Part shown: positions 10,233 to 28,092 of the stretch, piece by piece
Layout: each line of letters begins with the position of its first letter
Position numbering within the stretch: the stretch's first letter is position 1
Assembly (NCBI RefSeq): GCF_007991655.1
Contig: NZ_BJYT01000037.1
Span: forward strand, 1 to 34,317
Length of the DNA: 34,317 nt
Direction of reading: 5' to 3'
Origin: Segetibacter aerophilus
GTDB taxonomy: Bacteria > Bacteroidota > Bacteroidia > Chitinophagales > Chitinophagaceae
Notes under the pieces: generated by a model
Seen by the model: only the letters and a program-made list of their open reading frames with translations
The model's database searches: none
Told to the model about the DNA's origin: nothing
Program-made: the position numbers and the translations under genes

Positions 10233-10745
10233 ATGAATATTAGAGATGAACTATTAAAAGAGCATTCTTTAGCTAATACACGAAAGATTGTAAATTTTGC
10301 ATGTGCATCCGAAGAGAATTTTGAGCAGCTAATGCAGTGTTTTTTGTGCCAAGAATATCGAGTGGCGCAGCGGGCTTCTTGGGCTGTTAGTCACGTTGCC
10401 TCACGCCTCCCATCATTTATAAATCCTTATATAAAGGATTTGGTAGATCAATTATCCAAGAAAGAAGTGCACAATGCAGTCATCAGGAATTCAGTAAGAA
10501 TTTTACAACAGGTAGAAATTCCAGAGGAATGTCATGGTCAGGTTTTAAATGCCTGTTTCGCTTTTATAGAAAGCCATGATACTCCCATTGCCATTAAAGC
10601 TTTTTCACTTACCACACTCCATAACCTCAGCAAATTTTATCCTGAAATCAAAGGTGAATTGACATTAATTATTAAGGAAAGATGGGACTTAGAGACACCC
10701 GCATTTAAGTCACGGGCTAAGAAAATACTAGGGTTAAAAAATTGA
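10233..10745 (+). CDS. Small HEAT/ARM-like helical repeat protein
   Basis: A 170-residue soluble protein without signal peptide or membrane segment. The sequence is a series of amphipathic helices with a HEAT-like rhythm, for example QRASWAVSHVASRLPSFI, VIRNSVRILQQVEI and IAIKAFSLTTLHNLSKFYP, at spacings of about 35-45 residues. Such folds usually bind proteins or nucleic acids, and no enzymatic motif is seen. It is divergent from ndh and converges on the TonB receptor gene, with only 26 nt between the two stop codons, so it is probably a single-gene unit. I do not recognise a characterised family; conserved hypothetical is the safest label. Confidence 0.8.
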   Translation: MNIRDELLKEHSLANTRKIVNFACASEENFEQLMQCFLCQEYRVAQRASWAVSHVASRLPSFINPYIKDLVDQLSKKEVHNAVIRNSVRILQQVEIPEECHGQVLNACFAFIESHDTPIAIKAFSLTTLHNLSKFYPEIKGELTLIIKERWDLETPAFKSRAKKILGLKN

Positions 10746-10750
10746 TAGTT

Positions 10751-10775
10751 ATAAATCCCTGCTAGAAGGATTTAT
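10751..10775. terminator. Bidirectional hairpin between convergent genes
   Basis: ATAAATCC and GGATTTAT form a perfect 8-bp stem with a 9-nt loop, followed by TTTTAT on the plus strand. It fills the 26-nt gap between the HEAT-like gene and the TonB receptor gene, and the right arm includes the receptor's stop codon (10772-10774). Confidence 0.6.
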
Positions 10776-13057: not shown

Positions 13058-13401
13058 TTTTTTTAGTCTTGTCTAAATTATTATTTCGAGCAAACTTAAT
13101 AAAAATAATAATTGTTTTAAAGTAAATTTTTGTGCTTAGGCTAAATTGTAAGCATCATCATAATCTATAAACTTGGAATTTTAAACAACTGAAGACATTT
13201 TGATGGCTGCTGGCAAACTTTACCTCGCTGCTGCTTTCCTATTTTCCGGCTTACTATAAATGTTTTTCAACCGTTTTTCTAATTCTGTCTAGGCTGGAGT
13301 ATCCGGTGTACACTGTACTGATCTCTTTAAAGCGGTGGTGTCATTGCACTTTTAAAAGGGATAGAAGTAGAGCAGATTGTTTTTAATGGAACTAGAAAGG
13401 A
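13058..13401. other. Intergenic region between TonB receptor and chromate transporter
   Basis: Most of this 344-nt gap shows no gene or repeat. It holds the TonB receptor promoter (13091-13121). An 18-codon hydrophobic frame at 13203-13259 is too short to support as a gene. The chrA 3' side has no clear terminator. Confidence 0.5.
13091..13121 (-). promoter_or_regulatory. Promoter of the TonB-dependent receptor gene
   Basis: On the minus strand: TTTA, 19 nt, TAAGTTTG. The -7 box is an exact TANNTTTG match, and the -33 box differs from TTTG at one base with ideal spacing. The -7 box ends 33 nt before the ATG at 13057. No metal-box or other operator is obvious around it. Confidence 0.6.
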
Positions 13402-14586
13402 TCAGGCGGCGAGTATCAACTTTAGTAAGAGGCCGGTTAATGCAGCTACTAAAATTATTTGAGGCTCTTTTACTTTCTTCATTTTTAAAAGAATAATAAC
13501 GGTAATCAATGCTATTAAAGCCGCTGGAAAATCTTTTATTGTTCGGATGGCAATTACAATTACTGAACCTCCAAGGGCACCAACAACTGCAGCGGTTATC
13601 CCGTCAACAAATGCTTTGATACTTGGGTGCTTTCCGTACTTCTTAAAGTATGGTGCGGGTAAGACTGTAAATAAATAGCAGGGTAAAAAAGTTGCTAGTG
13701 CAGCTACAGATGCTCCCGGAAAACCTGCTACCAAATAACCGATAAAACCTACCGTTATTACAACCGGGCCGGGCGTTATCATCGCCACTGCAACTGCATC
13801 AATAAACTCATGTTCATTTAACCAATGGTATTCTGTAACCACACCACCATGCAAGAAAGGAACAATTGCCAAACCACTTCCAAAAACAAAGGCACCAGCT
13901 TTTGTAAAAAACCAGGCAATCTTAGTGAGCGTACCAGCCTCATAATTCCAAAAGCCAATACCTAGTAGAAAACCAGAACTGCCTACAGAAGGAGCTTTAA
14001 AACTTTTCGGTGGTGCTTTTAAAAACATATATAATAAGCCTGCTGCGACAAATAATAACACTTGCTCCTGTTCTGTTTTGATAGTTATAATTGCGGCCAG
14101 CAAAAAGAAGATCCAAAGCATCCATTTTTCAGTGATTGCTTTTAAGTTGATTTTACTGATAGACTTTTCTGTAAGCTTATAACTACTAATGGCAATAATG
14201 CCAACAACCGCCGCCCCTACTCCATAAAAAATAGCCTGCATCCACGGTAGACCGCCAAACATTTTATAGGCAATTCCAATTACAACCACCATAAAAAATG
14301 ATGGAAGCACGAACGCCAGCCCACAAAGAGTAGCACCTAATACGCCGTAGTGTACATACCCTAAGTAAATACCCAGTTGTGCCGCCAAGGGACCTGGCGC
14401 AAGTTGTGCCAATGCGAGCCCGTCTTTGTATTCTTCACCTGATATCCAGCGGCGCTCTTCCACTAAGTCGCGGTGCATATAACCTACTAATGCTACTGGT
14501 CCTCCAAATCCTAAATAACCGAGTTTCCAGAAATATTGCACTAATTGCTTTAAAGTGTAAATAGGTCTTGAATTCTTTTCTTCCAT
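13402..14586 (-). CDS. chrA: Chromate transporter ChrA, two-domain form
   Basis: ChrA-family (CHR) proteins export chromate, giving chromate resistance; many family members have not been tested. The 394 residues contain the two homologous CHR halves fused in one chain. The first has GFGGP (26-30) and QLAPGPLAAQ (61-70); the second repeats the pattern with GSGLA (236-240) and TPGP (271-274). About ten hydrophobic segments are spread over the chain, consistent with an inner membrane carrier. The length matches the long-chain ChrA class. No chrB-like regulator or chromate reductase gene sits next to it, so its inducing signal is not visible here. The start at 14586 is the only good ATG before the first conserved block. 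Confidence 0.92.
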   Translation of the reverse strand: MEEKNSRPIYTLKQLVQYFWKLGYLGFGGPVALVGYMHRDLVEERRWISGEEYKDGLALAQLAPGPLAAQLGIYLGYVHYGVLGATLCGLAFVLPSFFMVVVIGIAYKMFGGLPWMQAIFYGVGAAVVGIIAISSYKLTEKSISKINLKAITEKWMLWIFFLLAAIITIKTEQEQVLLFVAAGLLYMFLKAPPKSFKAPSVGSSGFLLGIGFWNYEAGTLTKIAWFFTKAGAFVFGSGLAIVPFLHGGVVTEYHWLNEHEFIDAVAVAMITPGPVVITVGFIGYLVAGFPGASVAALATFLPCYLFTVLPAPYFKKYGKHPSIKAFVDGITAAVVGALGGSVIVIAIRTIKDFPAALIALITVIILLKMKKVKEPQIILVAALTGLLLKLILAA

Positions 14587-14931
14587 TCTATAAATTTAAT
14601 TTCCATAGAAGTTGATTCTGATGGGCAGTATTCTAAGTCGTTATAAATTCTTTGTAACGGGCCGTGGTAATATCCATCAGGCTCTCTTGCGTCGCACTCT
14701 TGTACTGAAGTGAAGGCATCAACAAAAAAAGCTCATTCTCATCATTTTAAAAAGTCATTCTCTCCAGGTACAAAAAGTATTACTGTACAGAGCGAATGCG
14801 AGTTGTTAAGTGGGTTTACAATCAAACTATGTTGTAGTCTCGTCACTCATAAAACTATAGAAAGCATCTCCTCCACAACTCATCTCAATTTGGTTAATTT
14901 GCCAGATATTTGGTTTACCTATAATTTAATT
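14587..14931. other. Divergent intergenic region between chrA and the S41 peptidase
   Basis: This 345-nt stretch is open in the peptidase frame back to a GTG at 14710, but I treat it as non-coding because a signal peptide begins at 14932. It contains the second copy of the intergenic element (14685-14705, minus). AT-rich sequence with TTTG-like motifs follows at 14888-14925 and may hold the peptidase promoter, although no clean box pair is seen. Confidence 0.5.
14685..14705 (-). repeat. Intergenic element, copy 2
   Basis: Read on the minus strand it is GTACAAGAGTGCGACGCAAGA. The last 13 nt equal the core at 4316-4328. Its first 19 nt agree with the third copy (24126-24144, minus) at 16 of 19 positions. 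Confidence 0.6.
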
Positions 14932-17900
14932 ATGAAAATAATTCGCCCAACTTTTACAAAACTTACTGCTGTTTTATTTTCGGTTGCATCTGCCTGCTTT
15001 TGTTCTGCTCAATCATCCGAGCGAACTACAGGTGTTTCTAATACCGGAACTCCCTACTTTTCAGATCCAGCCCTTTCACCCGATGCTTCAGAAATTGCAT
15101 TTGTATCCGGAGGAGATATTTGGACTGTACCTGCAAAAGGCGGTGAAGCACGCTTATTAATTTCGCATCCTGACTTCGAAACCCGCCCCGTTTATTCTCC
15201 TGATGGCCGTTATATTGCCTTCACTTCTACCCGTTCGGGCAATGGAGATATTTATGTTTTAAACTTTGCAAACGGGCAACTTACCCGGTTAACTTATGAT
15301 GATGGTGCAGACAACGTAAACTCCTGGTCACCCGATGGAAAATACATTTACTTCTCATCTTCAAGCCGTGAAATTTCCGGAATGCAAGATGTTTTTCGCG
15401 TAAGAGTTGATGGCGGTACGCCGATGCCTGTATCTCAAAACCGTTATCTCAGCGAGTTTTTTCCTATGCCTTCGCCTGATGGTAAAACACTTGCGATTAC
15501 GGCAAGAGGTGTTGCATCCGGACAATGGTGGCGCAAGGGTCACAGTCATTTGGACGAGTCCGAAATCTGGTTAATGCATGAGGGGAAAAACGGCACGTAC
15601 GAAAAGATAACAGAAGGTGGCGCAAAAGAGCTATGGCCGATGTGGAGCAAGGATAGTAAAACACTCTACTACATTTCTGACCGCACAGGTGCTGCTAACT
15701 TATATGCCCGCCCTGTAGGTGGTGCTGCAAAAATGCTCACGCAGTTTGCCAAAGGTTTGATCCTTTTTCCAACGATTTCTTATAATGGCCAAAGTATTGT
15801 TTTTGAAAAAGATTTTAAGGTTTGGAGATTTGATCTTGCCAGCGGCAAGGCTACACCCGTTGATATAACACGACGTGGTGTGCCTGCCGGGCCGGGAGTA
15901 GAACACGTGAGACTAACCAGCCAATTTCGTGGACTAGAGCTTTCGCCCGATGGAAAGAAGATAGCTTTTATAGCCCATGGAGATGTTTTCGTTGCCTCTG
16001 CAAAAGATGGTGGAGATGCAGTGCGTGTGACAACAACAGGTGCTAATGAAGGCCAGGTAACATGGGCTCCTAACAGCAACAGCATTGTCTATACATCCGA
16101 TCGCGATGGTGTCTCTCATCTGTATCAATATAATTTTATCACTTCGTCTGAAACTCGACTTACCAATGACAAGCTGGATGATGGAAGTGCTTTATTTTCT
16201 TATGATGGTAAGACCTTGGCTTTTGTACGAGACGGTAAAGAGTTGAGAGTGCTTGACATGAACTCAAAAAACCAAATCTCGCTGGCGAAAGGCTATTTTG
16301 ATCGCCCCCCGTTTTCCTCTTCCAGCTCTATCGCCTGGTCTCCCGATAATAGATATGTTGCTTATGCTGCCTACGGTTCCAAGTCGTTTCAGAACATCTA
16401 CGTTGTGCCTGTAACAGGCGGCGAAGCAAAACCTGTGACTTTTTTAGCCAATGGTAATAGTGGAAGTGTAAACTGGAGCCGCGATGGAAAATATCTACTG
16501 TTCAATACAAGTCAGCGTACAGAGAATGGTGCTGTAGCGCGTGTTGACCTGGTTCTTCAAAGGCCGCGTTTTAGGGAGGATCAATTTCAGCAGATGTTTA
16601 CCGAGCAAGTACAAACCACTCCTGCTCCTGGTAACCCGCCAACAACACCACGACCGAATCCTGAAAAAGCAAATCGCGCTGCAGATACTATGTTCAAATC
16701 GCCCGCAAAAACAGTAAAACCGGGAGAAACAACGAACATAGTCTTTGACGGAATCAGGCAGCGACTAAACCTGTTACCCCTGGGAGTTGACGTTAATGAT
16801 GAAACAATCAGCAAGGATGGAAATACTTTGTTGATCACTGCGTCTGTTGCAGGCCAGGTTCACCTTTTTACTTATTCTTTGGATGAGCTATCAAGGGAAC
16901 CTGCTGTTTTAAAGCAACTAACATCCACTCCAGGTTTTAAATCAGATGCGCAGTTTTCACCCGATGGGAAAGAAGTGTATTTTCTTGAACAAGGAAGAAT
17001 TCAGTCTATCACCGTTGATACGAGAGCGGTAAAGCCTGTTGCAGTGACAGCGGAATTAGACGTAGACTTTCATAAAGAAAAGGTCGAAGTTTTTAAACAA
17101 GCATGGGAAGTACAGAATAAAGGTTTCTACGACGAAACCTTTCATGGTGCGGACTGGAATGCTGTTAAGACAACTTACGAACCGCTGGCTGAAGGAGCCA
17201 ATACACCTGATGAATTAAGAAGAATACTTAGCCTTATGGTGGGTGAACTCAATGCCTCTCACTCTGGAGTCTCTGGTCCACCATCACCCTTTATAACCGG
17301 AAGACTGGGGTTAAGGTTTGAAGCAAATGAATATGAAAATAGCGCGAAGCTAAAAATCATTGAGGTAATAACATTAGGCCCCGCTGCTGTTACAGGCGAC
17401 ATTCATGTGGGTGACTATTTGGTCTCTGTTGATGGCGTTCCAATATCAGCTAACGTTAATATTGATCAGTTACTCGAGAATAAAATCAACAAGCGGGTTG
17501 TTGTAGGAATATCGTCCGCAGGTTCTGCAAAAGACACAAAAAAAGTAACTGTAAGACCAGTAAATCAAACAACAGAAAAAGGACTTCTTTACCGCCAGTG
17601 GGTACAACAACAACGGGATTATGTAGCTAAAGTTAGTGGCGGAAGACTAGGTTATGTGCACATGTACGACATGTCTGCTCAATCCCTAAACCAACTGTAT
17701 TTAGATATAGACGCAGAAAACCATTCACGTGAAGGCGTAGTAGTAGATGTAAGAAACAACAATGGAGGTTTTGTGAACGCTTACGCTTTAGACGTACTGA
17801 GCCGCAAAGGGTATATGACTATGACCGTTCGCGGTTTACCCTCTGCTCCTGCCCGTACTCAACTCGGGCAACGAGCTCTTGACGCTCCAACTATCCTTGT

Positions 17901-18216
17901 GACTAATCAGCATTCCTTATCTGATGCTGAGGATTTTGCCGAAGGCTATCGTACCCTTAACCTTGGCAAAGTAGTTGGCGAACCAACAGGTGGATGGATT
18001 ATTTACACATCAGCAGCAACTCTAATCGATGGTACTACCATTCGCCTGCCTTTTATTAAAGTAACCGATCACGAAGGCAAGGATATGGAACTGCACCCAC
18101 GCCCTGTTGATATATTGGTGTCGAAGCCTTTAGGGGAGTATAATAAAGACTCGCAATTGGATGTAGCAGTGAAAGTATTATTGCAGCAGCTCGATTCGAA
18201 GCTTTCCAAAAAGTAA
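14932..18216 (+). CDS. Secreted Tricorn-like S41 family peptidase
   Basis: A 1094-residue protein resembling Tricorn protease, a serine peptidase that degrades peptides. The N-terminus has a signal peptide (residues 1-26, ending CFCSAQ). Then come many PD40/TolB-type beta-propeller blades (about 35-555 and 620-700, e.g. SPDGRYIAFTSTRSG, SPDGKYIYFSSSS), split by a Pro/Thr-rich linker around 565-580. The Tricorn C1 region (about 718-780) holds the probable catalytic His777 in ELNASHSG, a PDZ domain spans about 786-850, and the S41 core (about 900-1066) has the likely nucleophile Ser997 in HSLSDAED. I chose the ATG at 14932 over the upstream GTG at 14710, because the extra 74 residues are low quality and would bury the signal peptide. 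The next gene begins 37 nt downstream. Confidence 0.9.
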   Translation: MKIIRPTFTKLTAVLFSVASACFCSAQSSERTTGVSNTGTPYFSDPALSPDASEIAFVSGGDIWTVPAKGGEARLLISHPDFETRPVYSPDGRYIAFTSTRSGNGDIYVLNFANGQLTRLTYDDGADNVNSWSPDGKYIYFSSSSREISGMQDVFRVRVDGGTPMPVSQNRYLSEFFPMPSPDGKTLAITARGVASGQWWRKGHSHLDESEIWLMHEGKNGTYEKITEGGAKELWPMWSKDSKTLYYISDRTGAANLYARPVGGAAKMLTQFAKGLILFPTISYNGQSIVFEKDFKVWRFDLASGKATPVDITRRGVPAGPGVEHVRLTSQFRGLELSPDGKKIAFIAHGDVFVASAKDGGDAVRVTTTGANEGQVTWAPNSNSIVYTSDRDGVSHLYQYNFITSSETRLTNDKLDDGSALFSYDGKTLAFVRDGKELRVLDMNSKNQISLAKGYFDRPPFSSSSSIAWSPDNRYVAYAAYGSKSFQNIYVVPVTGGEAKPVTFLANGNSGSVNWSRDGKYLLFNTSQRTENGAVARVDLVLQRPRFREDQFQQMFTEQVQTTPAPGNPPTTPRPNPEKANRAADTMFKSPAKTVKPGETTNIVFDGIRQRLNLLPLGVDVNDETISKDGNTLLITASVAGQVHLFTYSLDELSREPAVLKQLTSTPGFKSDAQFSPDGKEVYFLEQGRIQSITVDTRAVKPVAVTAELDVDFHKEKVEVFKQAWEVQNKGFYDETFHGADWNAVKTTYEPLAEGANTPDELRRILSLMVGELNASHSGVSGPPSPFITGRLGLRFEANEYENSAKLKIIEVITLGPAAVTGDIHVGDYLVSVDGVPISANVNIDQLLENKINKRVVVGISSAGSAKDTKKVTVRPVNQTTEKGLLYRQWVQQQRDYVAKVSGGRLGYVHMYDMSAQSLNQLYLDIDAENHSREGVVVDVRNNNGGFVNAYALDVLSRKGYMTMTVRGLPSAPARTQLGQRALDAPTILVTNQHSLSDAEDFAEGYRTLNLGKVVGEPTGGWIIYTSAATLIDGTTIRLPFIKVTDHEGKDMELHPRPVDILVSKPLGEYNKDSQLDVAVKVLLQQLDSKLSKK

Positions 18217-18253: not shown

Positions 18254-19210
18254 ATGGATTCTGAATATCATATCGTAAGTGAGTTAGAGCAAAGTTTGAC
18301 TTTTAGTAGAAGAGATGTGCCTAAAAGCTTATTAGTAAAGCCCGATGTAGATCATCTTCTTAAGAATGCTTTCACTGATTGGGCAGCAATAGCAGTCTTA
18401 TGGGTACTGGCATTTTACCTTCCAACCTGGATGTACCCTATGATTGCAATACTGATTGCGTCACGCTATCATTCCTTTGGAGTCATACTACACGACCTTA
18501 CACATATGCCCTTAAGAAGCAAATCCATTAAGTGCAGGATATTAGAAATATTGACCGGCTATCCTATTGGGTCAACTATCAACGCGATGCGATACCATCA
18601 CCTAAGGCATCATAAAGACAGCGGGATGGAAACTGATCCATATTTTAAAAGTGGGATTGAAAAAAGTAAATGGATCAAGTATTTATTTATTCTAAGAGGT
18701 ATCATCCTCGTTCCTTTTTGGACGTTTCGTGGAATTTACGGAACACTTGCTTTTTATATTATCGCGATGCGAAACAGCTATGCTAAAGTATTCTTACAAG
18801 ATCGATCAGGTAAAGACTTTTCGCAAAGCAAGGAGGTAATACAGTGTGCTGCGGAAGACAGGTGGCAACTATTATTTCATATTGTTCTCTACAGCTCTTT
18901 ATTATGGGCACCGAAGTTTTTTATTTACGGCTACCTGGTGCCAATATTAATATCAGGAGTATTTGCTGGTTACAGGTTATTGAATGAGCACAAATATGTA
19001 GAGACATCTGATCGCACCTTTGAAACTATTTTGGCGACAACAAGAGACAATCATTTATCAGGCATTCTCAAATTTTTTCTTGCTCCAAAAAATATTGGCT
19101 ACCACATTGTTCATCATCTTCACCCGCAGGTGGCCTGGTATAAGTTGCCACAATTAAGAAAGTGGTATGTAGACAACTATGGTGAAATGTATACCAACAA
19201 AGAAAGTTGA
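18254..19210 (+). CDS. Membrane fatty acid desaturase/hydroxylase family protein (first copy)
   Basis: Integral-membrane di-iron enzymes of this family introduce double bonds or hydroxyls into lipid chains. The 318 residues show the histidine boxes HDLTH (80-84), HHLRHH (115-120), NEHKY (244-248) and HIVHHLH (284-290), separated by hydrophobic segments at about 44-70, 142-170 and 205-240. The box pattern differs from the second desaturase at 25275-26207, so the two are not recent duplicates. It lies 37 nt after the peptidase and 30 nt before the PAP2 gene, so it is likely co-transcribed with the latter. The substrate could be a fatty acyl chain, a sphingoid base or a carotenoid; sequence alone does not decide. 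Confidence 0.85.
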   Translation: MDSEYHIVSELEQSLTFSRRDVPKSLLVKPDVDHLLKNAFTDWAAIAVLWVLAFYLPTWMYPMIAILIASRYHSFGVILHDLTHMPLRSKSIKCRILEILTGYPIGSTINAMRYHHLRHHKDSGMETDPYFKSGIEKSKWIKYLFILRGIILVPFWTFRGIYGTLAFYIIAMRNSYAKVFLQDRSGKDFSQSKEVIQCAAEDRWQLLFHIVLYSSLLWAPKFFIYGYLVPILISGVFAGYRLLNEHKYVETSDRTFETILATTRDNHLSGILKFFLAPKNIGYHIVHHLHPQVAWYKLPQLRKWYVDNYGEMYTNKES

Positions 19211-19240
19211 GAGAGCCGTAATTCAGCTTTATAGAGAGTA

Positions 19241-19876
19241 GTGAAAACCGAAGACAATATTCTAATTGCAAGAAAAAACTCCTTAAAAAACAGATGGCTG
19301 CTACCTTCTGCTGCAGTTATTATTTTTCTGATACCTTATACGGTTGTCAATAATTTAACGCTGCAACGAAATACTATTTCATTCATTCCGGGAGAACAAT
19401 CGATACCTTTTTTGCCATGGACGTTCATCATCTATCTTTCAGCATTCCTGCAATCACTGTTTGTGATGTACCATTTGCCTCGGCCCCTGTTATATAAAAC
19501 GCTATTGTCGCTCTCGATTGCAGTAATGATTGGGTTTATTTTATTCCTTATCATTCCACTGCAATATCCTCGTGAGCTGTATGTAAATAATAATCCCCTG
19601 GTTATACTTTTCCGAAAAATAGACAGGTCTGGCAACTGCTTTCCATCGCTTCATATTGTTATAACTACGGTCTTCTCCTATACATATTGCAACTACGAAA
19701 AATCTAAGCTCAAAGGTTTTTTAATGTGGCTATGGTGTGCCATGATTATTGTTTCTGTATTAACAACTAAGCAGCATTATTTGATAGACGTTTTAGGCGG
19801 GATCGCGCTCGCAATTCCAACCCTGCTACATATAAGAAAACAAAATTTCTTGTCAGTCGTAACGGAGAACAGCTAG
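19241..19876 (+). CDS. PAP2 superfamily membrane protein, Aur1-like
   Basis: The 211-residue protein has about six hydrophobic segments and the two PAP2 signature blocks: GNCFPSLH (131-138) and TTKQHYLIDVLGG (175-187). His138, His179 and Asp183 are the expected catalytic triad. The FPSLH...TKQHYLID form is that of the Aur1/inositol-phosphoceramide-synthase-like branch rather than classic PSGH phosphatases. Such enzymes transfer a phospho-head group or remove phosphate from lipids at the membrane. The start is a GTG; there is no in-frame ATG before residue 75. It follows the first desaturase by 30 nt and converges on the START gene with a 24-nt gap. A head-group transferase role is an inference from motif type and context. 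Confidence 0.8.
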   Translation: MKTEDNILIARKNSLKNRWLLPSAAVIIFLIPYTVVNNLTLQRNTISFIPGEQSIPFLPWTFIIYLSAFLQSLFVMYHLPRPLLYKTLLSLSIAVMIGFILFLIIPLQYPRELYVNNNPLVILFRKIDRSGNCFPSLHIVITTVFSYTYCNYEKSKLKGFLMWLWCAMIIVSVLTTKQHYLIDVLGGIALAIPTLLHIRKQNFLSVVTENS

Positions 19877-19900
19877 AATAAACTTAATGATTGAAGAGCA

Positions 19901-20587
19901 TTAATTCTTGATGTAATCAATCTTAGCCTCCTGGTATTTCTTCTGTTTAATTAGCTCGTGTATTTTGACTTGTGTTTTATAAGGAGCTTCTGCAATAAAC
20001 ATATTTATCAACCATGTTGGCAACGTACCTCCCGGTTCACCATAGAAATAGTATTCCGCATCAACGCCACCGCTAACATTTGGTTTAATAATCCAACTGC
20101 ACTTCATCTTCGGAACCCTTATAAAATCCTTGGTTTTGGGTAGGTAATCACTCATCGCGTTGGACCGAATAGTCACAACCTTTGTAGCAGCGTTTTGTTC
20201 TATCACCTGGTGATAAATACCGTCCCGGTCAGAAAAAGGCCACGGTGCTTTAAGCTGCTGGTAGAATATCAATTCCTTTTCATTGATCTCTTTAAGAACT
20301 TTTGCAAGACTGCAATTATACATGTAAGAAGTTTGCGCAGGAACGTCCTGGATAAAAGCAACAAAGCCACTGAGACTCGATTGGAAAGTAGACACTACCT
20401 TCAGCTCTTTCAACGATGACCCTTCTACACTACGCTTGTAAATGTGGATGTCATCTTTAGTTTTAACCAATTCCCAGGTCTTTTGCGAAAATGTTATAAA
20501 GGGTACAGCGAGAAGAAACAGGGTTGTAAGTAAATGATATTTCCTTCCGGTCGTCATATTCATACTAATCTCTTCGGTGTGCTTCAT
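19901..20587 (-). CDS. Exported START-domain lipid-binding protein
   Basis: START domains form a hydrophobic tunnel that holds a lipid or other apolar ligand. The 228-residue product starts with a hydrophobic signal-like segment (LLTTLFLLAVPFITFSQ, about 19-35), so it is probably exported to the periplasm. A START-like domain follows, with LVKTKDDIHIYKRSVEGSSL near its beginning, the conserved WPFSDRDGIYHQ motif in the middle and a C-terminal amphipathic helix. Met9 or Met11 would give a more compact signal peptide and are plausible alternative starts. It is the last gene of the minus-strand set, 31 nt after the tandem-GNAT gene. In this setting it may carry the pathway's lipid product or intermediate; this is inferred. 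Confidence 0.82.
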   Translation of the reverse strand: MKHTEEISMNMTTGRKYHLLTTLFLLAVPFITFSQKTWELVKTKDDIHIYKRSVEGSSLKELKVVSTFQSSLSGFVAFIQDVPAQTSYMYNCSLAKVLKEINEKELIFYQQLKAPWPFSDRDGIYHQVIEQNAATKVVTIRSNAMSDYLPKTKDFIRVPKMKCSWIIKPNVSGGVDAEYYFYGEPGGTLPTWLINMFIAEAPYKTQVKIHELIKQKKYQEAKIDYIKN

Positions 20588-20618
20588 CAGGATGTGCGTT
20601 GTTCACTACCCATTTCAT

Positions 20619-21737
20619 TTAAATTCTTGCTGCCTCTAAATAGTACAATGAATGTTGCAGACTCTCTTCAATTTCGTCTTTATTAGCGACAATAAAATGT
20701 CTGCCCTTCACAATTTTCTTATTTGAAAACTTCCTCATCGAATCATTCAAACTATCCCTCTCATCTAGACCTACAAGGAAATAATCAAACGCTCCAGTTC
20801 TAAAATCGTTGTTTATTTTATTAAGAATGCTATCAAAGATTGCGCTTTCGTTATTCTTAATAATGATACTATGGATAGTCAAATAGCGCAGAACTGTTCC
20901 TTTAGAGGGCAGAATAAAACCATTGGTCAACCTGCCATAGATATTTAACGCCGGACGAAGCATTTTGTATGATGTAGAGTAATCGTAAATCCTTGTTTGC
21001 TTAATCGAATGTTGATCCCAAACGCCAGCCATGCCAACAAGTTCTTCTCCTTTGAAAGCAAGATAATAGTTGTCGAAGGCGAGGCCACGATAATAATCAT
21101 TACCCGAAAAGTTGAAATCGTAGTAAGGGAAGAACTCTTTTTTCGAACCCTCTGACAATACTAATGACTGCATTTGAGTGATGTCTTTTGTTCCGGCTTT
21201 TCTAACCATATAGTCACCTTCAGATTGTCTTCCTGAAGAAAACTTAACCATATAGGAAATATATTCCCCTGCTGGAAAGAATTTGAAAAGCGACATCCGC
21301 TTTTCAGGTTGTGCTAATTTATCAATCAACTTTAGCATCACTTCATTGTCTGCAAAAACAATTGTTTGTGCTACATCGTCTCCTAAGATACCGTGATCAA
21401 TTATGTATCTTCCTATCTGGTAAAGCAACCTTGAGCCACGTTCTTTAGGATCAATGCGCAGGTCAGAAAAGTAGCGCACGTTTTTTATCTCCTGTTGATA
21501 AAAAACCCGCCTCTTACCAACACTAAAAACCCCCACAATTTCCCCGCTGTTCTTTTTAACACATGTGTAGGTTTGCATGTTTTCAGATTGGATTTTTGAC
21601 CCCGTAAAAAAGTCGGGCGACCTCTCAAAAGTCAACATAATATTCCCCTTCATAGGAATTTTACAGAGTTTGCACAACCCTTCATTATCATCAGCCGTCG
21701 CTTTTTTAATGATGTAGCTGCTCACGATAAAAATCAA
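20619..21737 (-). CDS. Tandem GNAT-fold acyltransferase
   Basis: GNAT enzymes transfer acyl groups from CoA (or acyl carrier) donors to amines. The 372 residues look like two GNAT modules. The first (about 7-165) has a motif A-like stretch SDLRIDPKERGSRLLYQIGR (91-110) for pyrophosphate binding. The second (about 176-365) starts with YMVRKAGTKDITQMQ and contains YLAFKGEELVGMAGV and IHSIIIKNNESAIFD; its motif A is poor, so it may be a structural half. The gene overlaps the end of GH3 by 32 nt, strong evidence of coupled translation. A GTG four codons in (21725) is an alternative start. The substrate is unknown. Bacterial ceramide synthase is also a GNAT-fold protein, so lipid N-acylation is one option. 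Confidence 0.72.
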   Translation of the reverse strand: MIFIVSSYIIKKATADDNEGLCKLCKIPMKGNIMLTFERSPDFFTGSKIQSENMQTYTCVKKNSGEIVGVFSVGKRRVFYQQEIKNVRYFSDLRIDPKERGSRLLYQIGRYIIDHGILGDDVAQTIVFADNEVMLKLIDKLAQPEKRMSLFKFFPAGEYISYMVKFSSGRQSEGDYMVRKAGTKDITQMQSLVLSEGSKKEFFPYYDFNFSGNDYYRGLAFDNYYLAFKGEELVGMAGVWDQHSIKQTRIYDYSTSYKMLRPALNIYGRLTNGFILPSKGTVLRYLTIHSIIIKNNESAIFDSILNKINNDFRTGAFDYFLVGLDERDSLNDSMRKFSNKKIVKGRHFIVANKDEIEESLQHSLYYLEAARI

Positions 21738-23313
21738 TGTCTTTTAGTTCATGCTCAAGAAATAAAGCGGGCAGCTTAATATTGCCATCTTTGATTAATT
21801 TTTTCTCCCTGTAGTAAATGGCCAGGTTTTCCTTGAAACCTTTCGGGAGCATTTGGTATTGCATCGGTTTCAACTGCCCCGTATTTAATGCTTGTTGGTA
21901 ATATGGATTTTGACAAAGAATTTGTTCAAACTGCTTAACCATTTCTAAAAGCTCTTGCTGATTCTTTTGATCTGAAAGTTCTATATAAAGGGTGTACCTA
22001 CCAGACTGATTCAACTTTTCAGGTTTTAAAAAAATCATCGCCACCTGCATATTTCGACCTTTTAAAACTGCATCAATTATCTTGTTTACCTGAATCTCGC
22101 TAACCTTCTCCCCTACCAAATCTGATGTGCGACTATGCCTTCCTAGAAACTTCAATAACGGTATTTGTTGTTGGAAACCTGCGACTTGAACAACGTCTTT
22201 TGTTACATACCGATACAGCCCGCCCGCTGTTGTTACAATCACTTCATAGCATTCATCCTGTAAAAGCTGGTGGGCTAAATGAATAGTAGAATTATCTGTT
22301 TGTCTAAACTCAAAGAAATGTGATTGATAAGCCAGAGCCGGATAGGCAGCACCTTTAATTGGAATGCTAACGACAGCTTCTGTTGACAATAATCCCTTTG
22401 GCTGAACCCAAACTTCCCCCGCAATTCTTTCAACTTGTGAAAGCCATATCGAAGCCTGTGCATCAGTCCAGCAACTGATGCAGGCAAGGTTTGGCCAAAT
22501 GTCTTTCCATGTAAACACTTCTTGTGTTATTTCCTTTAATTGCCTATGTCGACGCCTGTCTACTTTACGGACTTCTTCCAATAAAAAAGTAAAGTTTGCT
22601 TTCATGAACTCATCCAGCTGAAGAAAAAATGTAGGGCTCCAGACAGAAATAAAAGACAAGTCCTCCTGCAGCAATAATTGCTTAAGTGTCGCAAAGTAGA
22701 AATCGTAAGGCTCTTTTATTTTGGCAGTGTTTGAATTAACCGCAATTATCCGGGAAAGAAAATATCGGAAGATGGGACTGAAATACGCCGCATCGTTTTC
22801 CAAGCCGACTCTTATGCCGCCTTCAGTAAACCTTGTTTCTTTTAGAGCCGGCGAAAGCGACCAATAAGATTTACCGCGAAAGGACTGGGGCAACTTGCCA
22901 TGCAGGTCGATCATCCAAACTTGCAAAGCCTTTTCAAACTCCTTTTTTAAACCCTTGTTGTACGGGATCAGTTTAGAAAAACCTGTACTGCCTGACGTCT
23001 CTTCAAATGCATCAACTGCTTCTGTACAAAGCACATTTTGCTCACCTTTTTCTATTCTCTTTATATACCTTTCAACCTGTTTCCAATCTTCTATTATTGG
23101 GACAGCTGTCGCGTAAGAAGCATAATCTTTTATTTTAGCAAACTCATGTTCCCGGCCGAAGAGAGTAGTACAATTGTTAGCGAGATAAGCGAATAGCTTT
23201 TGCTTTTGTACTACATCCACCTTGTGTTGGGAGGAATAATAGTTGTGATGTGACACTTTGCCAAACGACAGCATTAGCTTGTTCAGAAGATAAGTCTTAC
23301 TTACTTTCATCAA
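21706..23313 (-). CDS. GH3-family adenylate-forming acyl-amido synthetase
   Basis: GH3 enzymes activate a carboxylic acid with ATP and join it to an amine, usually of an amino acid; in plants they conjugate auxin and jasmonate. The 535 residues carry the three ATP-binding motifs. ETSGSTGFSK (105-114) is the phosphate loop, LLSTE (308-312) matches the Y-x-S-S/T-E motif, and GLYRYVTKDVVQVAGF (365-380) is the YRxxxxD motif. The segment FLGRHSRTSDLVGEKVSE (389-406) precedes the small C-terminal domain, whose LIKDGNIKLP carries a late Lys. It overlaps the 255-aa gene by 17 nt upstream and the tandem-GNAT gene by 32 nt downstream. Start could be either Met of the initial pair. Acid and amine partners are not known for bacterial GH3 proteins of this kind. 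Confidence 0.88.
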   Translation of the reverse strand: MMKVSKTYLLNKLMLSFGKVSHHNYYSSQHKVDVVQKQKLFAYLANNCTTLFGREHEFAKIKDYASYATAVPIIEDWKQVERYIKRIEKGEQNVLCTEAVDAFEETSGSTGFSKLIPYNKGLKKEFEKALQVWMIDLHGKLPQSFRGKSYWSLSPALKETRFTEGGIRVGLENDAAYFSPIFRYFLSRIIAVNSNTAKIKEPYDFYFATLKQLLLQEDLSFISVWSPTFFLQLDEFMKANFTFLLEEVRKVDRRRHRQLKEITQEVFTWKDIWPNLACISCWTDAQASIWLSQVERIAGEVWVQPKGLLSTEAVVSIPIKGAAYPALAYQSHFFEFRQTDNSTIHLAHQLLQDECYEVIVTTAGGLYRYVTKDVVQVAGFQQQIPLLKFLGRHSRTSDLVGEKVSEIQVNKIIDAVLKGRNMQVAMIFLKPEKLNQSGRYTLYIELSDQKNQQELLEMVKQFEQILCQNPYYQQALNTGQLKPMQYQMLPKGFKENLAIYYREKKLIKDGNIKLPALFLEHELKDIDFYREQLHH

Positions 23314-24064
23314 CGTTGAAAGTTTGTTCCATCCCCTCTAAAATATACTTCTTGCCGTAACCCCGTATGTTGTCCGGACGAAGATCAGCAAGGCAAACTA
23401 ACTCGTCGCCCTTATAAAAACCAGGGTTTTTGTGTAGAAAAAACCGAACGTGTGGCTTGTTTTGTTTCTCGAAAGTCGACTGAGCCAAAGAAGGTTTCAG
23501 TTCTCCCATTTTGTCTTTGAAAACAATAACTGTTTCATCAGGCCGATAATACTGCCCGTACAATTTAGAGGCAGTTTCATCGATAATGCTTTTTAGCAGA
23601 GGGTTTTCCGGCTGGTACAAACTAGGATAATATTCATGGAAGAATAGCGGCAGGTACATATACGTTCGGTGCCCCTTTGATAGCAGAAACCAGTACCATG
23701 TTTTAGTAGTATCGGTTGACATTATTTTTCCAACGGAAGTTGCCCAACCCCGCATCATTTCCTGCGTACCCCAATGAAGTGGTGAAATAACTGTATCACC
23801 TGAGAAAATAATTGAGTAGCCTGCACGGCCCGTTCCTTTAGGGTTTATTCCAAATGTTGTAAATCCTTGTATCGTCCTGAAATTATCAAATAGCAATCCC
23901 ACATAATTCTTATTACCCAGGTCATGTAAGAACGTCTCATAATTCACATAATCATAACTCTGCTCCATCAGCTCAAACATTCTACGGATGTTACTTTCCG
24001 ATAACTCGTCGCGTTCCAATAGAACAAAGTCTAACAGCTTACTTTGTATGGTTTGATTTTCCAT
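23297..24064 (-). CDS. Conserved-looking protein of unknown function in the GH3 operon
   Basis: I do not recognise this 255-residue protein. It has no signal peptide or membrane span. Its middle (FRTIQGFTTFGIN ... AGYSIIFSGDTVISPLHWGTQEMMRGWATSVGKIM, residues about 62-115) resembles the central beta strands and helix of a GNAT-type acyltransferase, but the pyrophosphate-binding motif is absent. The block WYWFLLSKGHRTYMYLPLFFHEYYPSLY is rich in aromatic residues and would suit a lipid or aromatic ligand. It ends 17 nt inside the GH3 gene, so translation is coupled, while 146 nt with an intergenic element separate it from the Rieske gene. An acyltransferase-like role is only a guess. Confidence 0.6.
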   Translation of the reverse strand: MENQTIQSKLLDFVLLERDELSESNIRRMFELMEQSYDYVNYETFLHDLGNKNYVGLLFDNFRTIQGFTTFGINPKGTGRAGYSIIFSGDTVISPLHWGTQEMMRGWATSVGKIMSTDTTKTWYWFLLSKGHRTYMYLPLFFHEYYPSLYQPENPLLKSIIDETASKLYGQYYRPDETVIVFKDKMGELKPSLAQSTFEKQNKPHVRFFLHKNPGFYKGDELVCLADLRPDNIRGYGKKYILEGMEQTFNVDESK

Positions 24065-24123
24065 TTATCTCAAACTTTATCTAGTTTTTTTTTTAACAAA
24101 CCTCTGTTGACTAATGTAGCTTC

Positions 24124-24144
24124 CGTTGTGTCACACCCTTGTAC
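24124..24144 (-). repeat. Intergenic element, copy 3 (degenerate)
   Basis: On the minus strand it reads GTACAAGGGTGTGACACAACG. It agrees with copy 2 at 16 of the first 19 positions. It sits in the 146-nt gap between the Rieske oxygenase gene and the 255-aa gene, that is, inside the presumed transcript, and could divide it into two units. Confidence 0.5.
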
Positions 24145-24210
24145 CGTATCTTTTCATAGCTGCTTTTATCAACTTGTGTTTCCTGCCAGAAGTTACGATT
24201 AAGCATCCTT

Positions 24211-25278
24211 TTATATCCAAAATTCAATTTGTTTTTTTATCGGCTGAGGTGTTGGTTGTTCATCTGGTGTTTCCGCAGCTCGCCTTAAAGATTCAATGTA
24301 GACATGCATGAAGTCTACTTGTGTAGACTTGTAGTCAGGGGTCTTAAAGGTTTGCATGTTTTTACCATGAATTTTCATAATCCACACATCCTGGTCGATA
24401 ACCTTCTTAGTATACCAGGGCAAAAAAAAGGTAGCAAGTGCGTTGAACCAACCGAGTTTGTAAGTGATTAACGTATACACTTTAGTTTCAAAGGCCTTAA
24501 CCGGCGTGCAGGTACTGGTGATTATAAAAGCTTTTTCCTGGTTGCCATAAACGTAATCAACCCTTGTAACATTCGGCATGTAGAAATTATCAGTATGCTT
24601 TAGAGGTAGCCGCTTGGGATTAATCATCCAGTCAAAAAAACCAATAGAGTCATTGGGTTGATCGTAACTCACTAGCACACTGTTGGGCGTTCTTTCAACT
24701 TCAGCTTTGATACAAATCTGCTTCTTATCGCGAAACCAACCTTTATGGACATATACTGTATGGGGAACGTCCATGAAGTTTTCGACAAGGTCTGTAACTG
24801 CATTATCAAAGGGCGTTACCATGTAGTAGTTCTTCCACCCTTCTCCACTATAATAAGGCATTTCAAAAGGCTCCTTGTCTGGCAAAACCTCTCGCCCCAT
24901 CCAAACCCACACCAGCCCGTATCGTTCTATCACCGGAAATAACTCAACTTTTTTGTTAGGTATACGATCGGTGTTAGGCCCTTCTGAGGGAATGTTAACA
25001 CACTGTCCCTTCTCGTTATACACCCAGCCATGGTAAGGGCAAACAATACAATCATTCTCAATTTTCCCTTCGCTTAAAGGAGCATTGCGATGATTACACC
25101 TATCAATCATTGCTGCTATGTCTCCCTTAGAATTTCTCCACAAAACGATGGGCAACTCCATTATGACTGCCTTAACTGGTTTACCTTTTTTCAGATCAGT
25201 GGATCGGGCTGCTGCATACCAGTAATTTTTAATCAAGCCACTACTTTCAATCATCAGTTTTTCGCTTAATGATTTCAT
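24211..25278 (-). CDS. Rieske-type mononuclear iron oxygenase
   Basis: Rieske oxygenases use O2 and electrons to hydroxylate, demethylate or desaturate an organic substrate. The 355-residue protein has the [2Fe-2S] Rieske motif Cys61-x-His63 ... Cys80-x2-His83 (CNHRNAPL and CPYHGW). The catalytic iron site is ENFMDVPHTVYVH (166-178): Asp170 as the bridging residue, His173 and His178 as ligands, with Asp297 (QDVW) as the probable third ligand. It resembles the alpha subunits of the PaO/vanillate-demethylase type, and no ferredoxin or reductase gene lies nearby, so electrons must come from elsewhere. It starts inside the end of the second desaturase gene (ATGA overlap), which makes joint action likely. 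The natural substrate is unknown. Confidence 0.88.
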   Translation of the reverse strand: MKSLSEKLMIESSGLIKNYWYAAARSTDLKKGKPVKAVIMELPIVLWRNSKGDIAAMIDRCNHRNAPLSEGKIENDCIVCPYHGWVYNEKGQCVNIPSEGPNTDRIPNKKVELFPVIERYGLVWVWMGREVLPDKEPFEMPYYSGEGWKNYYMVTPFDNAVTDLVENFMDVPHTVYVHKGWFRDKKQICIKAEVERTPNSVLVSYDQPNDSIGFFDWMINPKRLPLKHTDNFYMPNVTRVDYVYGNQEKAFIITSTCTPVKAFETKVYTLITYKLGWFNALATFFLPWYTKKVIDQDVWIMKIHGKNMQTFKTPDYKSTQVDFMHVYIESLRRAAETPDEQPTPQPIKKQIEFWI

Positions 25279-26207
25279 AGGCTGATCCCTGTTTCTTTTA
25301 CTGATTTAAAAATCAAAATGTGGGCAGGTACCTGCTTGGCAATCTTTAACCACTTCAGCCAGTAAATGGTATTCTCTTCGGGCGGTTTCAATTCACTCAA
25401 CCGATAAAAAGGAATTCCAGGAAATTGGTGATGAAGTCCGTGCTTGTCAAAATGATAAAGAATATATTTTGAGATCCATGTGGGATAAATAACAGACCGG
25501 GTATAGGCAGGTTGTAAACGATATTTAACTGGTCTCACATGTTGGCCTTCCGACTCAGGTTGATCTAAATGTGTATGTTGACTCAGCAGTAAAGGATCAG
25601 TCACGAAAAGGTATAAAACAAATGCAGGCAACCAACAAGTCAGCATGAAATCACTAAAGAAAAACACCAGCAACAAATACACGAGAACAATAAAGAAAAC
25701 ACTGAAACTATGCTGTAGAACTTTCTTCTTCTGAGGATACATCTTCATCAAGCGCGGGAGATTCCAAAAGGTCGAAGTAGAAAATGACAAAGCGAAAATG
25801 GGTATCCATCGTCTCCAACAAAAGTTGATAAAGCCGATGAGCATCGAAGAAAGTTCGGTGAGTTTTTTCTGCGGCTGCGTAGGGTCAAGATCCTTCCAGC
25901 CAGTCCAGACATGATGTGCGTGGTGCACATTCTTCCAGGGATAAAATGGAAGAAGACTAAACAAAGAGGCAACGTGTCCGAAGACGACATTTACAGAGTT
26001 GCTTTTGAAAAAGGCGCTATGGCCAAGGTCATGCTCCAGGATAAACCATTGTAGAATGCAAATCGCAAGTAATAATTCGCCCGGAACTTTAATGAAAAGA
26101 TTTTGAGATAATGTTAGGGCCATTGCAACGGCAGTTAAGGAGAGCTGCCAGGCAATTATCAGCCAGGCAAAGGTTGAAGACTTTCGTAAGTAACTGGTGT
26201 CCTTCAT
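25275..26207 (-). CDS. Membrane fatty acid desaturase (second copy)
   Basis: A 310-residue integral-membrane di-iron enzyme. The three histidine boxes are clear: HDLGH (59-63), HHAHH (95-99) and HGLHH (256-260), with an additional QHTHLD (210-215). Hydrophobic spans at about 15-57, 73-89, 133-147 and 168-203 fit the four-helix desaturase topology. It is the first gene of the minus-strand set and is joined to the Rieske oxygenase gene by a 4-nt ATGA overlap. The upstream 259-nt gap has no consensus promoter that I could identify. The HGLHH-QFPGIPFY ending resembles enzymes that act on lipid acyl chains, but carotenoid or alkane substrates remain possible. Confidence 0.86.
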   Translation of the reverse strand: MKDTSYLRKSSTFAWLIIAWQLSLTAVAMALTLSQNLFIKVPGELLLAICILQWFILEHDLGHSAFFKSNSVNVVFGHVASLFSLLPFYPWKNVHHAHHVWTGWKDLDPTQPQKKLTELSSMLIGFINFCWRRWIPIFALSFSTSTFWNLPRLMKMYPQKKKVLQHSFSVFFIVLVYLLLVFFFSDFMLTCWLPAFVLYLFVTDPLLLSQHTHLDQPESEGQHVRPVKYRLQPAYTRSVIYPTWISKYILYHFDKHGLHHQFPGIPFYRLSELKPPEENTIYWLKWLKIAKQVPAHILIFKSVKETGISL

Positions 26208-26466: not shown

Positions 26467-28092
26467 TTAGAAAATAAACCTAGTACTTAAGAAGTTTGAA
26501 TCTTCACCAGAGACGATCTCGTTCAACAGGTGCTTGTTGTTATCATTTAGTTTAGTTGCAACAAGGGAGCGGATAGAAAAAGACCGCAACGCATCAACGA
26601 CTGATAAGGTTCCCTCGGCACTATCTTTACGACCAGTAAAAGGGAATGCGTCAGGGCCGCGTTGACATTGGGCATTGATATTAACACGACTAACCTGGTT
26701 TACAAGAATGTCGATAGACGAAGCAACTTCATGACTATCGTTACTAAAAATACTTACTTGTTGCCCATGGGTTGACTCTATCAGGTACTCTATTGGCTCT
26801 TCCATGCTTTCGTAGGGAATAACGGGTATGATTGGGCCAAACTGCTCTTCGCGATACAGTTTCATTTTGTTATTTACGGGATATACGATGGCGGGATAGA
26901 AAAAGGACTCTACGGTAGCTCCACCATTTTCGTTTACTACTGAGGCGCCATTTTGTATGGCATCTTCAATGCATTCTTTTAAATAAGCCGGCTTGTTTGG
27001 CTCGGGCAAGGGGGTTAGTGATACGCCCTTTTCCCATGGCATTCCAAATTTTAGTTTTGATACCTCTTCTTTTAGTTGGCTTAAAAATTCTTCTGCGATT
27101 GTTTTATGAACAAAGATGATTTTTAAAGCAGTACAACGTTGGCCGTTAAAAGACAGCGAGCCAAGTACAGTTTCCTGCACGGCCAATTTAATATCAGCAT
27201 GGCTGGTAATGATGGCTGCGTTCTTAGCATCAAGGCCAAGAATTGCCCGCAACCTGTTTATTTTAGGGTGCAGTTTTTTTAATTCGTTAGCCACTTTGCT
27301 TGAACCAATTAGAGTAAGCACGTTAATCTTTCCCGACTTCATGAGGTCAGGAATAATCGCATTACCACGGCCATAAATAGTATTTACCACGCCTTTTGGA
27401 AAACAGCTTCGAAAAGCTTCTAACAAAGGATAATGCAATAAGGTGCCGTGTTTTGGAGGTTTAAACAAAAGGGTGTTCCCCATGATAATTGCAGGAATAA
27501 GCGTGGTAAATGTTTCGTTCAAAGGATAGTTGAACGGCCCCATACAAAGTACAACCCCAAGCGGTGAACGTCGTACTTGCGCAATAATCCCCTGTTGCAT
27601 TTCAAACCTGGAAGAATCCCTGTCAATATCTTTAAGAGCGTCAATAGTTGCGTAGATGTATTCAACAGTACGATCAAACTCTTTTATAGAATCTGCATAA
27701 GACTTACCGATCTCCCACATGATGAGCTTTACTACAAGGTCTTTTTGCTCTATCATTTTTCTTGTAAAATTCTCAACACAAGCTATCCTGTCTGAAACAG
27801 CCATTGTTGGCCACTCACCGCGCCCGTTATTATAGGCAACAACCGCTGCATCCAATGCATCCATTGCCTCTTTCGGAGTGCATACAGGGTAAGTGCCAAT
27901 TAATTTTCTTTTCAATCCTTCCGGCGTGCGTACACACACAGGCGAGTACACTTCATGCACATCCCCATTCCATTGCAACATTTCTCCGTTAGACAAATAA
28001 GTTTTTTGATGTACTTGCACAGGAAGAGCAAATTCTTTTGGAATCTCGTCCTCTGCTACAAAGATTTTTTCAAGTTGTTCTGTGAAAGTCAT
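26467..28092 (-). CDS. Aldehyde dehydrogenase, GapN-like (NADP-dependent glyceraldehyde-3-phosphate dehydrogenase type)
   Basis: ALDH-fold enzymes oxidise aldehydes to acids with NAD(P). The 541 residues include Asn188 in MGPFNYP, the cofactor lysine Lys211 (FKPPKHG), the nucleophile Cys320 in NGQRCTALK and Glu416 in EEQFGP. The normal ELGGK motif is replaced by GLDAK (286-290), so the usual general-base Glu is a Gly. The sequence and length (50-60 residues longer than typical ALDHs) recall non-phosphorylating GAPDH (GapN) proteins, so I favour that function: direct oxidation of glyceraldehyde 3-phosphate to 3-phosphoglycerate with NADPH formation. Function remains unproven because of the motif change. 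It has its own terminator, and no close same-strand neighbour precedes it. Confidence 0.75.
   Translation of the reverse strand: MTFTEQLEKIFVAEDEIPKEFALPVQVHQKTYLSNGEMLQWNGDVHEVYSPVCVRTPEGLKRKLIGTYPVCTPKEAMDALDAAVVAYNNGRGEWPTMAVSDRIACVENFTRKMIEQKDLVVKLIMWEIGKSYADSIKEFDRTVEYIYATIDALKDIDRDSSRFEMQQGIIAQVRRSPLGVVLCMGPFNYPLNETFTTLIPAIIMGNTLLFKPPKHGTLLHYPLLEAFRSCFPKGVVNTIYGRGNAIIPDLMKSGKINVLTLIGSSKVANELKKLHPKINRLRAILGLDAKNAAIITSHADIKLAVQETVLGSLSFNGQRCTALKIIFVHKTIAEEFLSQLKEEVSKLKFGMPWEKGVSLTPLPEPNKPAYLKECIEDAIQNGASVVNENGGATVESFFYPAIVYPVNNKMKLYREEQFGPIIPVIPYESMEEPIEYLIESTHGQQVSIFSNDSHEVASSIDILVNQVSRVNINAQCQRGPDAFPFTGRKDSAEGTLSVVDALRSFSIRSLVATKLNDNNKHLLNEIVSGEDSNFLSTRFIF

Follow-up and report, generated by a model that had tools for sequence, protein, structure and literature searches.

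The window analysed here, 34,317 nt of Segetibacter aerophilus DNA, is contig 37 (NZ_BJYT01000037.1) of a 5.9-Mb genome. Positions 18,254–26,207 hold eight adjacent genes, termed A to H, three of which (F, E and D) form a core that is found again in distant bacteria. The initial annotation had described eight adjacent genes in two converging units, and all eight open reading frames (ORFs) were located where it had placed them. The genes and one flanking gene are:

18254–19210, + strand: A (des1), membrane desaturase/hydroxylase, 318 aa; Pfam FA_desaturase at 102.2 bits, His boxes
19241–19876, + strand: B, PAP2 membrane protein with an Aur1-like profile, 211 aa; PAP2_3, PAP2 and PAP2_C above cut-off
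19901–20587, − strand: C, START-domain protein; Pfam START at 28.6 bits (cut-off 22)
20619–21737, − strand: D, tandem GNAT with an N-myristoyltransferase-like fold by predicted structure, 372 aa
21706–23313, − strand: E, GH3 amide ligase by family, in a clade apart from the OlsH-like GH3s of the genome; GH3 N, M and C domains
23297–24064, − strand: F, single-domain GNAT-fold protein by predicted structure, 255 aa; without a Pfam or NCBIfam model
24211–25278, − strand: G, Rieske non-haem iron oxygenase, 355 aa; Pfam Rieske at 92.5 bits, VanA_C
25275–26207, − strand: H (des2), second membrane desaturase, 310 aa; Pfam FA_desaturase at 92.3 bits, His boxes
26467–28092, − strand: flanking aldehyde dehydrogenase (ALDH), outside the proposed island; kept in genomes of the genus that have no F

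The unit formed by A and B converges on the unit formed by C–H. The spacings are 30 nt (A–B), 24 nt (B–C, converging), 31 nt (C–D) and 146 nt (F–G), while D and E, E and F, and G and H overlap by 32, 17 and 4 nt, respectively. The overlap sizes in the initial annotation were correct, but the three overlaps join five genes, as D–E–F and G–H, rather than four. The 17-nt and 32-nt overlaps depend on TTG starts, with an ATG one codon downstream in E. The gene at 14710–18216 precedes A by 37 nt on the same strand. Promoter- and terminator-like sites show no excess over shuffled sequence, and base composition gives no island signal (GC content 0.38–0.42 inside the genes, 0.37–0.44 outside). Six of the eight ORFs (A, B, C, E, G and H) score above the Pfam cut-offs, in accordance with their earlier labels as two desaturases, PAP2, START, GH3 and Rieske proteins, and D and F have no Pfam match at 0.01.

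To place these genes among other genomes, we assembled 24 loci that carry F. An F-based scan of named genomes returned 14 loci, tblastn of plasmid records returned 12, of which eight are distant Azospirillum copies, and genome searches returned further loci. The set comprises 13 of the 14 named-genome loci (L025, a near copy of L021, was left out), three of the 12 plasmid loci, L031 and L032, and six of seven further loci (L062, on the same contig as L020, was left out). The loci were chosen for F, so its presence in 24/24 follows from the selection. L020, L022 and L026 resemble each other closely and are not independent, and L016 is a 6.6-kb contig of a metagenome bin that may be misbinned.

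Partners were counted with profiles at E 1e-5. A GH3 protein is present in all 24 loci, and D is present in 20 (19 by BLAST), lacking only in the four loci whose sequence stops at GH3 (L017, L023, L031 and L061). The other partners are a Rieske oxygenase (17/24), a membrane desaturase of the family (12/24), a protein with five transmembrane segments (10/24), B12 radical-SAM enzymes (8/24), PAP2 (7/24; 4/24 by BLAST), an RnfD/FG-GAP protein (7/24) and an alpha/beta hydrolase-like protein (4/24). A Rieske oxygenase, desaturase or radical-SAM enzyme occurs in 17 of the 18 loci of at least 12 kb, the exception being an Acinetobacter locus. The same profiles detect none of the partners in seven control loci, three of them around GH3 paralogues of the window genome and four around distant paralogues of F. 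The records bearing the core are labelled Bacteroidota, Spirochaetota, Verrucomicrobiota and Pseudomonadota. Thus, the F–E–D core recurs across phyla with desaturases, Rieske oxygenases, PAP2 and, elsewhere, B12 radical-SAM enzymes.

The fullest likeness to the window is seen in a spirochaete (L024), a genome of the same order (L057) and Burkholderia arboris (L027). These three loci have eight proteins in common: des1, F, GH3, Rieske, D, a PAP2–desaturase fusion, another desaturase and the hydrolase-like protein. Seven of the eight window genes are matched there, H by family only, and START is unmatched. Gene order differs among the distant loci that hold the core.

Two neighbourhoods of the core extend this picture. 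On an IncF plasmid of Citrobacter portucalensis typed as mobilizable (L028, 11950–24054), the core lies with PAP2, a desaturase and five radical-SAM genes, and this cluster has no near match in an E. coli collection. In addition, the core is repeatedly accompanied by the five-transmembrane protein and by a large protein that combines an RnfD/NqrB-like membrane region with FG-GAP repeats and an ASPIC domain (L013, 683–3460; also L014, L015, L017, L019 and L058). The large protein is present in five of 13 genomes searched and was not found in a search of the window genome; it possibly supplies electrons.

The members of the core also diverge together. Pairwise distances correlate at 0.94 for D and E, 0.91 for E and F and 0.84 for D and F (17–20 loci), and at 0.59–0.66 for the Rieske protein with D, E and F (12–15 loci); not one of 2000 permutations gave a correlation as high as any of these six. 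This set included L025, and shared ancestry of the genomes is another factor that would raise such correlations. The F–E–D core thus co-diversifies across phyla. Its distribution is patchy: F occurs in one of 395 genomes sampled in the phylum, which is the window itself, in six of 247 sampled in the order of L013 (Saprospiraceae; three of them weak and in another context), in six of 30 sampled in the order of L024 and in three of 177 sampled in the order of L026. This patchiness makes horizontal transfer of the core likely, though not proven.

Within the genus, F is missing from all nine other genomes (two of them less than 90% complete). ALDH is 84–94% identical in six of these, all without F, and was therefore rejected as an island member. 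The ALDH region was compared in these six genomes. In one (G253), genes for NADH dehydrogenase, ALDH and DUF2723 are consecutive, and A–H and the genes at 10233–18216 are absent; in another (G252), the stretch before ALDH and DUF2723 holds only fragments matching the 14710–18216 gene and two other ORFs; the remaining four have different genes beside ALDH. The window's flanks are shared with two of these genomes, and the evidence for an empty site comes from those two. The position of the island is occupied in G252 (L084, 3199–13278) by a 3359-aa ORF. The genes at 10233–18216 (170-aa, TonB-type, ChrA-like and 1168-aa genes) are missing from G253 as well, which extends the variable site beyond the island. 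Taken together, the ALDH regions and the absence of F establish that A–H is accessory DNA at a variable site. The initial annotation had looked to gene order in relatives, and the outcome is divided: the closest relatives lack F, while the F–GH3–D core and most partners are kept, in varying order, in distant bacteria. That the grouping exceeds chance is supported by the recurrence across phyla, by the absence of the combination around the three GH3 paralogues and by the missing F in the genus.

E matches Pfam GH3, GH3_M and GH3_C at 127.1, 58.2 and 35.7 bits (cut-off 23.6 each). Of its nucleotide motifs, I (TSGST) and III (GLYRYVTKD) are recognisable, and II only in part (LSTE). Three further GH3 genes lie elsewhere in the genome (L105, L106 and L107, on contigs 12, 4 and 13). 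On the NCBIfam OlsH model, which has a cut-off of 620 bits, E scores 41.6 bits and these paralogues score 286–408 bits, also below the cut-off; two other cluster GH3s have no match at 1e-5. A GH3 tree separates the clade of E from the three OlsH-like paralogues with a split of 100/100. Only this split is used, given that 10 of the 23 inner branches are left open, that long branches come together and that several rows differ in letter composition.

The available excerpts of the OlsH paper describe a Singulisphaera acidiphila enzyme that uses ATP to join fatty acid and ornithine into N-acyl ornithine (PMC12493201). Given this precedent, E would by analogy make an amide, and ATP-driven amide formation is its obvious candidate role. 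E resembles the OlsH/OlsI pathway of those excerpts in being a bacterial GH3 in a lipid-type operon, but differs in partners, which are F, D, Rieske, desaturases and PAP2 rather than OlsG and OlsI (PMC12493201). The plant acyl-amide synthetases JAR1/AtGH3.11, as presented in the same excerpts, belong to the same Pfam family and have versions of motifs I and III, whereas E is bacterial and lies in a lipid-type operon (PMC12493201). Elsewhere, a Streptomyces plasmid GH3 adjoins polyketide synthases, in a region whose annotation includes no gene resembling F or D.

D is predicted to be a tandem GNAT (AlphaFold2, pLDDT 90.2), bearing out its earlier label. Its best Foldseek match is the N-myristoyltransferase 1iyl_A (E 5.6e-13, TM score 0.60). 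N-myristoyltransferase uses its own C-terminal carboxylate as base, and a conserved free C-terminus is a likeness between the two: the motif [ED]xxx[ILV] closes 20 of 20 complete copies of D, including that of the window. The differences are an identity of about 12% and a setting for D other than that known for protein N-myristoylation. None of 13 D members matches the Pfam NMT models, with weak matches to Acetyltransf_1 in four and to Acetyltransf_9 in two, and D has no PDB sequence match that counts. Another tandem GNAT from bacteria, NpuN, moves an acyl group to an amine, acylating a peptide lysine of the nostolysamides; its substrate is a lanthipeptide, and GH3 is not mentioned with it in the available part of the report (PMC13060382).

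F, which had been left unassigned, is predicted to adopt a GNAT fold with an extra C-terminal part (AlphaFold2, pLDDT 88.6), and its Foldseek matches are GNATs (best E 1.3e-5). It has no Pfam or NCBIfam match at 0.01 and no sequence match in the PDB. The family has a conserved SKGHRTYMYLPLFF stretch. According to the predicted structures, F is a third GNAT-fold protein beside the tandem GNAT D, and part of the core. The distant F paralogues at L035 (8380–10393) and L036 (9892–11833) adjoin enolase-superfamily (MR_MLE) genes, an arrangement that we take to recall N-acylamino acid racemase neighbourhoods.

Among the partners, both desaturases match PF00487 far above its cut-off of 29.7 bits and have three His boxes each, those of A being HDLTH, HHLRHH and HIVHH. 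BLAST homologues of A occur in four of the 24 loci (L018, 55%; L024, 47%; L057, 47%; L027, 38%), with a best plasmid match outside the cluster of 28%, and a homologue of H occurs in one (L013, 43%). B matches PAP2_3 at 52.2 bits and carries the motifs PSLH and QHYLID (QHxxxD); PAP2 is fused to a desaturase in L024, L027 and L057. G carries CxH-CxxH and DxxHxxxxH motifs (CNH...CPYH and DVPHTVYVH in the window), as do 17 of 17 BLAST homologues. We set aside A as the guanitoxin arginine hydroxylase GntB (62.4 bits, cut-off 380) and G as the 4beta-methylsterol monooxygenase SdmA (113.5 bits, cut-off 600).

These observations suggest a pathway in which D would move an acyl chain from acyl-coenzyme A or acyl carrier protein to an amino group, its own C-terminal carboxylate serving as base in the manner of N-myristoyltransferase. 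E would activate a free carboxylic acid with ATP and join it to an amine, and F would transfer a second acyl group onto a substrate of amino-acid type. From the two acyltransferase folds next to E, its partner would be an acylated amine or amino acid. A, H and G would desaturate or hydroxylate the chain, and B would remove or exchange a phospho head group to give a lipid-like product; from their families, we infer that membrane desaturases, Rieske oxygenase and PAP2 are suited to oxidising a chain and changing a head group. C may bind the product, and related clusters do without it. Together with similar oxidising partners, the core enzymes F, E and D probably make one oily amide compound. The initial annotation's reading of one lipid or acyl-amide-type pathway stands in outline, its chemistry being drawn by analogy, and its statement that the window holds no core synthase is probably wrong, because F–E–D looks like the core.

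We consider it an evenly balanced judgement that 18,254–26,207 is, as a whole, one accessory and probably horizontally acquired biosynthetic island whose core would form an acylated amide, to be oxidised and modified by the remaining enzymes. Several points weigh against it. The partner profiles were built partly from the same loci in which partners were counted. Motif patterns for GH3 miss some loci (motif I in 20/24, motif III in 14/24; four of the 24 are incomplete), the fold matches of F are weak (TM score about 0.4) with a P-loop that is atypical by eye, and H is conserved by family only. C has no BLAST homologue in the 24 loci, its paralogues in the other genomes of the genus are only 22–27% identical, and the START family is widespread in the order (119 of 248 genomes), so that C, which had been counted into the pathway, was rejected as a core member. 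Finally, an Acinetobacter baumannii record (L029, 9141–17918) holds F, GH3 and D with HlyD, MFS, OEP and SurE genes and without oxidising enzymes. With exporter genes in place of oxidising enzymes, the compound made there may be something other than a membrane lipid, and the F–E–D core alone may suffice for a product that is perhaps exported.

This locus is the starting point for a rival reading that we regard as possible but distinctly unlikely, in which the island makes a small secreted amide (a signal, siderophore-like compound or antibiotic), the desaturases and Rieske oxygenase tailoring a small amino-acid-derived scaffold instead of a membrane lipid. The patchy distribution agrees with it, as does GntB (62 bits) being the best NCBIfam model for A. 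However, the presence of PAP2 in seven of 24 loci and of several membrane desaturases points to a membrane-bound substrate, D is similar to a long-chain acyltransferase, and no exporter was identified in the window island. Acylation of a peptide or protein by D, E and F, whether in a pathway for ribosomally synthesized and post-translationally modified peptides or as protein lipidation, is improbable. NpuN offers a precedent in the part of its report available (PMC13060382). The Foldseek matches of D to N-myristoyltransferases and the B12 radical-SAM enzymes in eight of 24 loci point the same way. Against these stand that we know of no GH3 that acts as a peptide ligase and that no precursor peptide was seen, though the loci were examined only for ORFs of 80 aa or more.

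Still less credit goes to an ornithine-lipid pathway of the OlsH type, which would account for E as a relative of a characterised bacterial GH3 (OlsH, as excerpted; PMC12493201) and for the alpha/beta hydrolase-like protein of L018, L024, L027 and L057, whose GHSRG-type motif, judged by eye, is reminiscent of OlsI. The OlsH-model scores given above place E and two other cluster GH3s much further from OlsH than the paralogues, and such a hydrolase was not found in the window genome at E 0.001; we therefore set this pathway aside. Modification of a terpenoid or sterol, with G as sterol demethylase, B as prenyl phosphatase and C as sterol carrier, has a very slight probability: the best NCBIfam model of G is indeed the 4beta-methylsterol monooxygenase, but its score falls far below the cut-off, START does not recur and the F–E–D core is left unexplained. 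The least credible reading, which we hold to be barely tenable, is that unrelated neighbours gathered at a variable site. The site does vary (related genomes of the genus have different content there or none), START is missing from the other loci and a close homologue of H is found in one locus. Nevertheless, the same combination in distant phyla and the permutation result for correlated distances already contradict it for A, B, D, E, F and G, leaving it open for C and partly for H.

Regarding the novelty of the acyl-amide island, a full-text literature search around GH3, in which most subscription journals were not covered, found no description of this combination, in line with the earlier statement that no characterised pathway has it; a search on bacterial ceramide synthase as a GNAT found nothing usable. 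The clusters for N-acyl dehydrotyrosines (stieleriacines) are alike in giving acyl-amino acid products with oxidative tailoring, but consist of NasY with ThiF and a nitroreductase, and the main text of that report, so far as available, has them without GH3, desaturase, Rieske, GNAT or PAP2 (PMC12479983). This difference in gene content led us to set aside that identity (PMC12479983). The parts of the island are known families, and the combination, the GH3 clade and the F family appear undescribed. A more far-reaching proposal is offered tentatively, as conceivable rather than probable: a transferable core of GNAT, GH3 and NMT-like proteins with C-terminal-carboxylate catalysis would make an undescribed class of acyl-amide lipids or metabolites, with tailoring by phylum that is O2-dependent (Rieske and diiron enzymes) and possibly also O2-independent (B12 radical-SAM enzymes).

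If true, the finding would add a pathway spanning Bacteroidota, Spirochaetota, Verrucomicrobiota and Pseudomonadota records, assign a function to GH3 proteins of a clade distinct from the OlsH family and delimit a GNAT family that is missing from Pfam and NCBIfam. In the available excerpts of the OlsH paper, the function of most bacterial GH3 proteins is left open (PMC12493201), and the cluster makes one GH3 clade testable.

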